DNA from: Spirochaetota bacterium
GTDB taxonomy: Bacteria > Spirochaetota > Brachyspiria > Brachyspirales > JACRPF01
Assembly (NCBI GenBank): GCA_016214035.1
Contig: JACRPF010000018.1
Span: forward strand, 1 to 64,000
Length of the DNA stretch: 64,000 bases
Direction of reading: 5' to 3'
Shown: positions 40,761 through 43,875 of the stretch, in pieces
How the letters are laid out: each line of letters opens with the position of its first letter
Position numbering within the stretch: position 1 is the first letter of the stretch
The notes under the pieces: generated by a model
What the model saw: the letters and a program-made list of their open reading frames with translations, nothing else
What the model was told of the DNA's origin: nothing
The model's database searches: none
Program-made: the position numbers and the translations under genes

Positions 40761-42512
40761 ATGAGCATTGCCGAAGAGAGCAAAACCCAGGCATTTGACC
40801 GCTATTTCTCGGATATCGCAGCAATTGTATCCACACTTGAACGTATTGCATCTGTAAACGCCAGAAAACGTCCCGGAGCACAACAATCAGCGAGCACCAT
40901 AACGGATATCGCAGACAACGATATCCCGTTCGTCGATGAGCGCAGCGGTGCGCCTGAGGACATCGACACGCTCATTGCATCGCTTGAGCGCCAGATAGCA
41001 GGCCTGAACTCATATATAGCATACCGGTTCAACATCGACCGGCTTGTTGAAAAATATAACCTCAACCTCAAAGAACGTCTTATCATGTACGTCATGCTCG
41101 TGTCGTCGCTCTACGCCGAAGCAAACACGGTGCCGCTGCGCCGCATACTCGAACTGATAAGCATCAAGGGCGAACTGTATATCAGCAACTACCCCTATCT
41201 TTCGCCCACGGGAACGCTCATCGCCACCGGCGTGCTCACGATCATAAAAGAAATGCCCGGCATGGAAATATCGCCCGATATCATGCGCATGCACATCGCG
41301 TTCGCCGACGCAAAGATGCTTTTCGTGATGCTCGAGCAGGCGCCATGGGCGCATATCGAAAAGTCGCCCGACACGCCGCAGGAACGCCCCGCGGGTGCGA
41401 CAACCGGCGGGACATCTCCGTTCGAACGCATCATCGAATCGATAACACCCAAAGAAATAGTGCAGGAACTCGACCGCGTGGTCATCGGCCAGCAGCGGGC
41501 GAAACGCGTGCTTGCGGTGCAGTCGTATCTTCATTATCTCCGCGTGCGTAACAGCGAATCGGTTCCCCTGCGCTCGAACATCATGCTCATCGGCCCCACG
41601 GGTACCGGGAAGACCTTCCTCGCCAAAAAATTATCGCAGATACTCGCACTCCCCTTCGTCCGTGCCGATGTCACCACGCTTACGGAGACCGGCTATGTGG
41701 GCGACGACGTTGAAGTGGTGCTCTTCGACCTTTTCAAGCAGTCGCGCGGCGATATGAGCCTCGCCGAAAAAGGCATCGTATTCCTCGATGAGATAGACAA
41801 GATAGCCAAAGCCGACACGCATCAGTCCACCACGGGCAATCCGTCGGACAAGGCCGTCCAGGAAGCGCTTCTCTCCATGCTCAACGGCGAGAAGGTGCGC
41901 GTACCAGAGTCCGGCGACCGGCGTATGATGCATGCCGGTGAAGGACTGCTCATGAATACGCACAACATACTCTTCGTCTTCGGCGGTGCATTCGTGGGCC
42001 TCGAGGAGATAATCGCCAAACGCATTCAGGGCGATGCGACGCTCGGGTTCACCACATCGCTTGCGGCGTCGAAACGTGAACAGGAAGACATGCTCGCCAA
42101 AGTGGACATGAAGGACCTTGAAAAATACGGGATGATACCCGAGTTCCTCGGACGCATTCCCATCGTCGTGTCGCTCCACAAACTGAGCAAGGACGACATG
42201 GAAGCTATTCTCCTCAAAAGCATGGACTCACCGCTCGTAAAATACGGCGAGTTCTTCAAATCGCTCGGCAAACGTCTCGTGGTGAGCAGCGATGCCATGC
42301 GTGCCATCGTTGACCGCGCCTACGACATGGGCACCGGCGCCCGCGCGCTCAAAAGCGTCGTGGAGAACCTCATGATAGGCGTGCTCTACAACTGCGACGA
42401 CATCAAAGGACCGGCGATAAAGATAACCAAGAAGATGGTAGCGATGTCATTGGATGAACTTGACGCTGCTGCGACGGAAGTTCAACCGGTGGAAGTGAAG
42501 AAGCTGGCGTAG
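40761..42512 (+). CDS. ClpX-like AAA+ ATPase with a non-standard N-terminal domain
   Basis: 583 residues. The AAA+ core (about 225-565) is ClpX-like: Walker A GPTGTGKT near 278, pore loop TETGYVGDDVE, Walker B GIVFLDEIDKI, and GAFVGLEEII. MIPEFLGRIPI holds sensor and arginine-finger elements, and GTGARALKSVVE is sensor 2. The LGF in DATLGFTTSL sits where ClpX has its ClpP-docking LGF/IGF loop. The N-terminus differs: instead of the four-Cys zinc domain there are about 215 residues, including KERLIMYVMLVSSLYAEANTVPLRRILELISI, which looks helical and winged-helix-like. The RKH substrate loop reads GDRRMMHAG. It is probably an unfoldase, perhaps with ClpP, with different substrate choice. The TAG stop lies in the left end of the DUF559 element. 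Confidence 0.85.
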   Translation: MSIAEESKTQAFDRYFSDIAAIVSTLERIASVNARKRPGAQQSASTITDIADNDIPFVDERSGAPEDIDTLIASLERQIAGLNSYIAYRFNIDRLVEKYNLNLKERLIMYVMLVSSLYAEANTVPLRRILELISIKGELYISNYPYLSPTGTLIATGVLTIIKEMPGMEISPDIMRMHIAFADAKMLFVMLEQAPWAHIEKSPDTPQERPAGATTGGTSPFERIIESITPKEIVQELDRVVIGQQRAKRVLAVQSYLHYLRVRNSESVPLRSNIMLIGPTGTGKTFLAKKLSQILALPFVRADVTTLTETGYVGDDVEVVLFDLFKQSRGDMSLAEKGIVFLDEIDKIAKADTHQSTTGNPSDKAVQEALLSMLNGEKVRVPESGDRRMMHAGEGLLMNTHNILFVFGGAFVGLEEIIAKRIQGDATLGFTTSLAASKREQEDMLAKVDMKDLEKYGMIPEFLGRIPIVVSLHKLSKDDMEAILLKSMDSPLVKYGEFFKSLGKRLVVSSDAMRAIVDRAYDMGTGARALKSVVENLMIGVLYNCDDIKGPAIKITKKMVAMSLDELDAAATEVQPVEVKKLA

Positions 42513-42615
42513 CTCACTCACCCCCACTGGTCGGCGGCTACGCCATCCATGGCGCCGCCTCCTTCGCGACATCCTGTCGCATAACACCCCCTCTCTCGGA
42601 ATACGACAGAGGGGG
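42510..42615. repeat. Left end of the DUF559 element: terminal repeat plus three hairpins
   Basis: Terminal TAGCTCACTCACCCCC is followed by three hairpins. GGCGGC (42533-42538) pairs with GCCGCC (42554-42559) and encloses GCCAT/ATGGC. GCGACA (42566-42571) pairs with TGTCGC (42575-42580). CCCCCTCTCTC (42587-42597) pairs with GACAGAGGGGG (42605-42615) with one mismatch. Confidence 0.85.
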
Positions 42616-42978
42616 AGAACCGGTTTCTTTTTCAATTACTGCAAGTACTTCATTTACATTGTTTTGAACATCGTTGTTTGAAAATCGTAAAACACGCTTC
42701 CCCATCACAGATAGGATAACAGTTCTTGCATCATCGTATTCTTTCTGCTGCTCATGTATCTGCCCGTCGATTTCGATGCATAGCCCGGCTTCGGCGCAAT
42801 AAAAGTCTGCGATAAAACAACGCTGTTCACCGTCAAGCATGAAGCGGATAACATGCTGCCGGGTGAACTTCATTCCGTTCAATTTTCTGTTCCGTAAATG
42901 CTGCCACAGCATCTTTTCAGCTTCCGTCTGCCGCGCCCTCAGTCCCCGTGCTTCCGCCGTCGATTTTCTGATGAACAT
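42538..42978 (-). CDS. DUF559 / Vsr-like endonuclease
   Basis: 146 residues from the ATG at 42978 (AAGGAT upstream). The family pattern is complete: an N-terminal helix region with ARQTEAEKMLWQHLRNRKLNG, MKFTRQHVI, then the nuclease core FIADFYCAEAGLCIEIDGQIH. In this core Asp58, Glu69 and Asp71, followed by His75, suit a PD-(D/E)XK/Vsr-like metal site. The last 30 residues (SPPLSYSERGGVMRQDVAK) are translated from the hairpin repeat region rather than from the conserved domain. DUF559 proteins often carry such tails, as I recall. A DNA nick or cut is the expected activity; the biological role is unknown. It is the only gene within the inverted repeats. Confidence 0.88.
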   Translation of the reverse strand: MFIRKSTAEARGLRARQTEAEKMLWQHLRNRKLNGMKFTRQHVIRFMLDGEQRCFIADFYCAEAGLCIEIDGQIHEQQKEYDDARTVILSVMGKRVLRFSNNDVQNNVNEVLAVIEKETGSPPLSYSERGGVMRQDVAKEAAPWMA

Positions 42979-42994
42979 CCATTATCCTTGAATT

Positions 42995-43056
42995 CCCCCT
43001 CTCTCGTTTTTGAGAGAGGGGGTGCCGCGTATTCCGCGGCGGGGGTGAGTGAGCTA
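42995..43056. repeat. Right end of the DUF559 element: two hairpins plus terminal repeat
   Basis: A perfect 11-bp stem, CCCCCTCTCTC (42995-43005) with GAGAGAGGGGG (43012-43022), is followed by GCCGCG/CGCGGC (43024-43029 and 43035-43040). The inverted terminal copy GGGGGTGAGTGAGCTA (43041-43056) closes the element. The order is the mirror image of the left end. Confidence 0.9.
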
Positions 43057-43875
43057 ATTCGCACTCACCTTTATCGCATATGTTCCGAATTTATACAGCT
43101 CATAAAGTACACTTCTTAGTCCGGTGACAAATATATAGATTTTCGCAGTCTCGTTCGCAGTAAAGTTTGTGCCGACTGTAAATCCATTTGTTTCATATTT
43201 AGCGCCTGCATATGTAATTGATGCTGGAATTGCACCCCAATCATTGGTACAAGTTTCAATTGCTTGTTTATAAACGTAAACTTCTATATCAGCAGTTTTC
43301 CCATTGCTATTCGTCAATTCATCCCAGAATACGGTAAATGACTGCCCACTCGTTGCATTCAACCAGTACCACCTAACTGTATTACTATTGTCAATTGAAT
43401 CATTCACCCACGTATTTATATTTGTAATCTGATACGTCTTGAGAGAACCCTGCGCACATGCCGTCTGATCGCTTTCGTAATAGAATGAACTTGATTCTTT
43501 AAAAGCAACAGCTGTAGTAGTCACCTTATAATAATACATGCCTGGATACATCGACAAATACTCTGCTGTTCCAATTCCTTTATCTGAATAATCGTTACCA
43601 GTTGAACCGCTAAATCCATAAAAGCCTGAACCTAGTTGTCTACTTTTATATATAATGTAATACTTGTTTATTCAATCAACATCCTTTTCAATAAACTCCC
43701 ACCGTCCATTATCCCATTGTATGACAATCCTGTCCGAATACAGCCCCTGCGACGCGCTCACCGTCGTCGGCGGAAACACTTTCACATCAGGCCGTCCGGG
43801 CGCGAAGAGGCCGCAGGAGGTGATGAAGATGGACAAAATACCGACAAGCAGCATCGGGAATGAGGATAATTTCAT
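43054..43875 (-). pseudogene. Lipoprotein with fibronectin-III-like domain, interrupted by an in-frame TGA
   Basis: The reading frame begins at 43875 (MKLSSFPMLLVGILSIFITSC), a lipoprotein signal peptide with lipobox ITSC. It continues into SASQGLYSDRIVIQWDNG, the start of an FN3-like sandwich. It hits TGA at 43672-43674 and then goes on in the same frame for over 200 codons. The resumed part (INKYYIIYKSRQLGSGFYG, then PGMYYYKVT) is the rest of the same FN3-like domain, so this was one gene of about 273 codons. A beta-rich C-terminal domain follows (TVRWYWLNATSGQSF and VTGLRSVLYELYKFGTYAIKV). The part after the stop is clearly more AT-rich than its neighbours. Either a nonsense mutation or a base error explains it. 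Its stop codon is the TAG in the right end of the DUF559 element. Confidence 0.75.

Follow-up and report, generated by a model that had tools for sequence, protein, structure and literature searches.

A DUF559 nuclease gene between inverted palindromic ends, a candidate mobile element in a Spirochaetota bacterium with relatives in many phyla

The window analysed here is a 64,000-nt stretch (positions 1 to 64,000 of contig JACRPF010000018.1, GenBank assembly GCA_016214035.1) from a Spirochaetota bacterium of the order Brachyspirales, whose genome comprises 5.2 Mb in 22 contigs (labelled G000). At 42513-43053, two inverted ends enclose one gene only, encoding a predicted DUF559 nuclease (42538-42978, minus strand). 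This unit of ~0.54 kb is probably an intact copy of an autonomous mobile element that consists of the nuclease gene and its two ends and is spread by the nuclease; we put the probability at about two in three. Its mobility is well supported by sequence comparison, namely by the association of gene and ends, dispersal in multiple copies with sharp borders, an empty site in one relative, purifying selection, and in-frame insertions in unrelated genes. We infer that the nuclease is the mobiliser and acts by a cut-and-copy mechanism, which is favoured by its fold of homing type, by the absence of target duplication, and by insertions at the same sites in different organisms.

The unit and its protein

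Both ends have the same grammar, which reads from the outside inward CTCACTCACCCCC, an insert, and a CCCCCTCTCTC hairpin. The left arm of the outer 13-bp inverted repeat (CTCACTCACCCCC) lies at 42513-42525 on the plus strand, its boundary being set by alignment of the copies in a genome of the same family (G001), and the right arm lies at 43041-43053, with CTCACTCACCCCC on the minus strand. CTCACCCCC is separated from the hairpin by a different insert at each end. On the left, ~60 nt (42526-42585) contain two smaller hairpins, and short stretches similar to this insert also occur elsewhere in the same genome. On the right, the insert is an 18-nt mini-hairpin, GCCGCGGAATACGCGGCA (43023-43040, GCCGCGgaataCGCGGC on the minus strand), which is kept in a second copy on contig 10 (C10) and in many G001 ends. 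The left-end hairpin CCCCCTCTCTC-ggaatac-GACAGAGGGGG, followed by AGAACCGG (42586-42616), pairs with one mismatch, and the right-end hairpin CCCCCTCTCTC-gttttt-GAGAGAGGGGG (42994-43023) pairs perfectly. AGAACCGG is present again in solo ends on contigs 1 and 6 (C1 and C6) and in contig C4 of G001.

A sequence-only reading of the window had described perfect 16-bp inverted repeats. The arms at 42510-42525 and 43041-43056 are complementary at 16 of 16 positions with a separation of 515 nt, but they take in the TAG stop codons of both neighbours. One belongs to the upstream AAA/ClpX-like gene (open reading frame [ORF] 40761-42512, plus strand; stop at 42510-42512, counted as repeat in that reading) and the other to the ORF at 43054-43557 (minus strand; stop at 43054-43056, CTA on the plus strand). 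Since the outermost TAG/CTA belong, as stop codons, to two convergent neighbours, only 13 bp of inverted repeat are the element's own, and the element lies exactly between two stop codons. Other parts of that reading stood: the DUF559 gene is alone inside 42513-43053, a hairpin lies inward of each end after the unequal inserts, and the order of the blocks recurs in many genomes, including in the box C family of repeats discussed below.

Where 0.19 matches to the 16-mer (up to three mismatches) were expected in the window, 3 were present, a number that no shuffle reached. CCCCCTCTCTC (one mismatch) had 4 matches against 0.44 expected, all 4 within the two hairpins. As single-stranded DNA, both ends fold much better than shuffles (z-scores of -5.7 and -7.0). 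Chance or base composition as the source of the pattern was ruled out by the shuffles, control windows, and folding z-scores.

The gene encodes 146 amino acids (aa), with the DUF559 domain (PF04480) at 42628-42966 and a profile match of 110.7 bits (cut-off 20.6). Residues E21, D58, E69, D71, H75, and D82 are invariant across 40 sequences. The predicted structure (predicted local distance difference test score of 84.8) has 3hrl (NGO0050, a DUF559 protein) as its top fold match, and its second match, which likewise depends on the model, is 3r3p, the catalytic domain of the homing endonuclease I-Bth0305I (E = 7e-4). With acidic/His active-site residues and a modelled fold of Vsr/EDxHD type, the protein is a predicted nuclease. 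The ratio of nonsynonymous to synonymous substitution rates (dN/dS) between close DUF559 copies in G001 is 0.08-0.16, so the protein has been preserved by purifying selection while multiplying. The domain stops at residue 117 of 146, so that nearly all of the C-terminal 29 residues (ETGSPPLSYSERGGVMRQDVAKEAAPWMA) are encoded by the left end, in agreement with the ~30 repeat-encoded residues noted earlier. This read-through looks like a result of stop-free G/C-rich repeats and not proof of co-evolution; in other lineages it is the rule, with the whole unit in frame within host genes.

Copies, an empty site, and the association of gene and repeats

The second copy in the window's own genome begins at position 95033 of C10, comprises the right end and the start of the DUF559 gene (94.6% identity to the window unit over 148 nt), and then breaks off. 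Two left ends without the gene lie in related contexts on C1 and C6, close to contig ends. More solo CTCACCC..CCCTCTC ends were seen at C13:119391-119436 and C20:100594-100643, far from any DUF559 gene. In G001, which belongs to another genus and is 97% complete, the 71-nt right end has ~20 matches, mini-hairpin included, and all 6 DUF559 loci have such ends in unrelated contexts. Two pairs of G001 copies share 84% (C142/C66) and 88% (C118/C97) identity over ~470-500 nt. Homology among the copies ends at (A)CACTCACCC..GGGTGAGTGTG, their flanks are unrelated, and their left ends lie 3-42 nt past the stop codon of a long ORF. The same unit is found with sharp ends at several unrelated sites, as the G001 copies and the truncated C10 copy. 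By inspection, no target-site duplication, a trait of miniature inverted-repeat transposable elements and classical insertion sequences, was found at the junctions of the window copy and of those five G001 copies for which both junctions were available. The solo ends and the inverted pairs without a gene would be non-autonomous derivatives or remains of the element.

In Sinorhizobium sp. C101, a DUF559 gene and the double-palindrome units on its two sides (~760 bp in all) lie between two genes, which in Shinella PSBB067 are ~10 bp apart with nothing between them, an empty site. The flanking units, ~120-bp double palindromes, recur in many S. meliloti plasmids; they may be RIME elements of Rhizobium, which are rhizobial intergenic units with large palindromes and are not known to have a nuclease assigned to them. 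No clean empty site was found in the Azospirillum and Picosynechococcus plasmids searched. The DUF559 gene of Escherichia coli, ycjD, is polymorphic (sapF-fabI region; L154-L157), and most of the ycjD region is carried by 3334 of 5395 genomes. In the three genomes with the alternative allele that were read, a resistance-nodulation-division efflux cluster stands between sapF and fabI, hence the locus offers no clean empty site and was rejected as a test.

The mobile unit proposed in the sequence-only reading is borne out by the multicopy ends, the sharp-ended copies, and the Sinorhizobium/Shinella empty site. That reading was to be given up if the ends were single-copy and DUF559 genes elsewhere had no repeats; several copies of the ends exist both in the window's own genome and in G001, which rules out single-copy ends, and DUF559 genes elsewhere are repeat-flanked.

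Repeats of the pattern CTCACCCC..CCCCTCTC were counted in 100 relatives, with the reversed pattern as control (pattern/control: G001, 51/0; G049, 89/0; G064, 61/0). At least three repeats were present in 11 of 19 genomes with DUF559 vs 3 of 81 without it (Fisher test, 1.5e-7; 7e-6 after removal of the Brachyspirales-family relatives), the genomes in this test not being phylogenetically independent. A further set of 80 named loci, chosen by protein similarity to the window protein alone, includes Bacteroidota, Chloroflexota, Cyanobacteriota, Pseudomonadota, Nitrospirota, Patescibacteria, and others. The 350-nt flanks of 73 DUF559 loci from >10 phyla were compared with 355 control windows from the same loci. 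An inverted-repeat score of at least 14 was reached by 74% of the loci vs 2% of the controls (p = 7e-30), the scores of mispaired flanks were likewise much lower, and G/C-rich purine/pyrimidine tracts of at least 8 occurred in both flanks in 82% vs 4%.

The palindromes differ in other DUF559 lineages, with CCCCCTAAATCCCCC in L057-L059, CCCTGACCCCC in L019, and GCCCCTCACCCTAACCCTCTCCCC in Sinorhizobium. A second lineage, L057-L059 (G049) and L031 (G088), has CCCCCTAAATCCCCC..GGGGGATTTAGGGGGC palindromes, a repeat type very common in environmental genomes. At L042 (contig C226 of G032), two full, near-identical direct copies of a ~130-bp double palindrome flank the gene, with AAGGAAAACGCGATGA after each. 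In several Bacteroidota (L074, L141, L113, and L130), the gene lies within arrays of 100-220 nt direct repeats containing CCCTCTCC palindromes. In Neisseria gonorrhoeae (L071), a similar palindromic repeat (CCCTCTCTCTAGCTCTCTCCCACAGGGAGAGAGG type) stands on either side of the gene, apparently NGO0050 (PDB 3hrl). Eighteen viral contigs from IMG/VR (L159-L176) encode DUF559 relatives; most of these contigs are 4-9 kb long and have the gene close to one end.

Several observations weigh against the reading of the unit as a nuclease-driven mobile element. Fewer than three repeats of the exact pattern were found in 8 of the 19 DUF559 genomes, some of which carry other repeat families, and three genomes (G080, G051, and G072) have repeats and no clear DUF559 gene. 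Four crude classes of end motif showed no clustering when mapped onto the nuclease tree (11 changes, against a mean of 12.4 in shuffles). The empty site is a single one, seen between genera (82% identity) and not as a strain-level polymorphism. Caulobacter VsrA, a DUF559-domain protein, triggers an SOS response upon loss of cytosine methylation, and a role in mismatch repair has been proposed for it (PMC12907096). Finally, the Azospirillum copy is one-sided, with a unit only upstream, and two whole repeat units flank the gene in Sinorhizobium and L042; both arrangements also fit insertion beside existing repeats.

The genomes G080 (2 contigs), G051, and G072 hold 5-30 CTCACCCC..CCCCTCTC repeats each, which fit non-autonomous remains. 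Cognate co-evolution of end motif and nuclease gave no signal with the four motif classes, and the earlier suggestion that gene and repeat evolved together is unsupported.

The one-sided and doubled arrangements bear on an alternative in which the repeats are pre-existing targets and DUF559 is a free-standing homing-type gene that inserts in or beside them and does not spread them. The complete, directly oriented units on each side of the gene in Sinorhizobium C101 and at L042, the Azospirillum locus, and gene-less repeats far outnumbering gene-bearing ones would all suit it. However, in the window and in G001 the gene has a single end on either side, the two forming an inverted pair with no unit split or duplicated; the insertions in MnmE and urocanase come with linkers derived from the repeats at places where relatives have none; and most repeat-rich genomes have DUF559. 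We regard this alternative as unlikely.

In-frame insertions in host genes

Among the 80 loci, 21 DUF559 genes lie in frame within ORFs of 588-1758 aa, and the remaining 59 ORFs have at most 275 aa. Hosts assigned by Pfam are MnmE (L111), leucyl-tRNA synthetase (LeuRS; L117 and L124), urocanase (L105), YgiQ-type radical SAM proteins (L147 and L149), hydantoinase B (L094), and, of restriction-modification (R-M) type, MmeI, Eco57I, N6_N4 methylase, HsdM, HsdR, HsdS, and type ISP. For MnmE of Runella zeae, the segments that align with PDB 3gee are residues 5-337 (16-356 of 3gee) and 518-618 (374-476 of 3gee); a 17-residue loop between the NKxD and SAK motifs is replaced by a 180-aa insert, and the C-terminus is still CIGK. 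The linkers of the in-frame cases are translated repeats (SPPAPLLAGEG.., NPPLLSGEG), and the reading frame is continuous through both junctions. Eight loci gave no Rfam match to a self-splicing intron or structured RNA, and no intein family was among the Pfam scan matches of the in-frame proteins.

A clade of seven nucleases (support 98/93) is found in MnmE, urocanase, HsdM, HsdR, and type ISP, in the last at two sites, and the in-frame genes group together on the nuclease tree (8 changes, against a mean of 18.8 and a minimum of 15 in shuffles). One nuclease lineage has therefore inserted into unrelated genes, in each case in frame. Pairs from different organisms share their insertion region in LeuRS (L117/L124), type ISP (L099/L115), HsdM (L090/L152), and YgiQ (L147/L149). 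This fits homing, inheritance, or a tolerated loop, and judged by sequence the same-site insertions would be compatible with homing into an unoccupied allele.

That the in-frame cases are simply fused domains, retained because they serve a function and with no link to mobility, could be argued from these same-site pairs and from the similar identities of host (62%) and insert (60%) in the LeuRS pair. This is very hard to reconcile with one clade spanning five unrelated proteins, with linkers that are translated repeats, and with an insert in MnmE that takes the place of a loop between NKxD and SAK, and we give it hardly any weight. A role of DUF559 as a Vsr-like host repair or defence nuclease, with the hairpins as terminators or regulatory repeats, would accord with the SOS effect of VsrA (PMC12907096), with weak PADLOC matches, and with the many in-frame hosts that are R-M genes. 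It appears highly improbable, as the copies are multicopy, decaying, and dispersed with sharp ends, G/C palindromes stand on both sides and not 3' only, and insertions lie inside LeuRS, MnmE, and urocanase.

Relation to known repeats, mechanism, and significance

Box C, PIT (potential intrastrand triplex), and triplex motifs (TM; TM_ECO in E. coli; Hoyne and Maher 2000; Holder et al. 2015) have been known since the 1990s. The box C/PIT/TM repeats, whose grammar recurs in the window ends, consist of a G/C-rich CCCTCxCCC..GGGAGAGGG hairpin, a short loop, and a near-mirror GGGTGAGGG third strand; they are intergenic, at times in inverted pairs, and occur in hundreds of genomes. Unlike them, the motif here is the end of a nuclease-coding unit, with a second loop that is longer or hairpin-bearing. 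The outer motif reversed, CCCCCACTCACTC, matches the inner arm CCCCCTCTCTC in a mirror-like but imperfect way across a second loop of 18 or 60 nt. Holder et al. (2015) defined the motifs by their G/C-rich hairpin and the near-mirror third strand that comes after it, found them in >260 genomes and 23 times in E. coli K-12, tied them to genome instability, and saw no transposase or integrase near them (PMC4666352). Their K-12 sequences (CCCTCGCCCCTCTGGGGAGAGGGTTAGGGTGAGGGG) have the same grammar as the window ends read on the other strand. K-12 motif no. 9 (1,351,239-1,351,204) is the sequence of a copy 167 nt downstream of ycjD; by a rough estimate from 18 motif sites in 4.6 Mb, ~0.003 motifs this near the gene are expected by chance.

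The unit is akin in logic to, and not a member of, the repetitive extragenic palindromes (REP/REPIN) and their REP-associated tyrosine transposases (RAYT, or TnpA-REP). Like these, it has short palindromic repeats as inverted pairs around a single small nuclease/transposase gene and many non-autonomous copies, with no target duplication seen. In contrast, its enzyme has a DUF559 (EDxHD-like) fold instead of HUH/Y1 (PF01797), in-frame insertions occur, and its ends are CTCACCC plus a mirror hairpin with no fixed GTAG/CGTC tag; the GTAG beside some ends arises from a TAG stop codon 0-4 nt away and is missing at other ends. The earlier analogy to RAYT and REP holds for this logic and not for the Y1 transposase or the tag. 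Gene and repeats might also be passengers of an unrelated enzyme, such as a Y1/RAYT-type transposase. The similar logic and some Y1 transposase in 9 of 12 repeat-bearing genomes checked are in keeping with this, but no PF01797 match was found in G001 despite its 51 repeats and 97% completeness, nor in G040 and G072, DUF559 is the sole gene in the unit and is under purifying selection, and the ends have no tag at a fixed position. Such a passenger state is highly improbable, and a Y1/RAYT transposase as general mobiliser is unsupported.

Among other systems, EDxHD homing endonucleases (I-Bth0305I) have the closest fold after DUF559, and they resemble the unit as small selfish nuclease genes tolerated in frame in hosts. 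They differ from it in that the unit was found without intron or intein, has palindromic ends of its own, and occupies many insertion sites, not one. YcjD, NGO0050 (3hrl), and Caulobacter VsrA belong to the same Pfam family and are known only as host proteins. Rickettsia palindromic elements (RPE), known only from Rickettsiales and relatives, are palindromic repeats that lie in frame in protein genes, as here; they are non-coding as elements and have no nuclease. No description of flanking repeats of DUF559 genes was found in the literature searched, from which most subscription journals and preprints were absent. Provisionally, as far as literature and mechanism allow, the unit would be a new kind of mobile element.

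In the mechanism we propose, the nuclease would recognise the ends or an unoccupied target and make a break or nick, and host recombination repair would copy the element into the target in the manner of homing endonucleases, without target-site duplication. Insertions harmless to the host would then be retained by selection, whether they abut intergenic stop codons or, as in one specialised lineage, lie in frame in surface loops of host proteins. A broader proposal, whose chances we consider even, is that EDxHD/DUF559 nucleases between triplex-forming palindromic ends form a widespread undescribed class of mobile DNA that copies itself by cut and repair and seeds box C/PIT/triplex repeats in many phyla, one lineage living in frame and unspliced in essential proteins.

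With DUF559 as a candidate mobiliser, the origin of the box C/PIT/triplex motifs becomes directly testable, including in E. coli K-12 with ycjD. In-frame nucleases with repeat-coded linkers in LeuRS, MnmE, and urocanase represent a way to live in essential genes without introns or inteins. If the proposal is true, DUF559 would join HUH/RAYT as a second class of nuclease that disperses short palindromic repeats, many 'DUF559 domain' fusions and SPPxPLxxGEG-type peptides in databases would be recast as remains of the element, and the family would be a source of specific small nucleases. The DUF559 unit may be what drives a set of common bacterial repeats of unexplained origin, E. coli box C and its kin.

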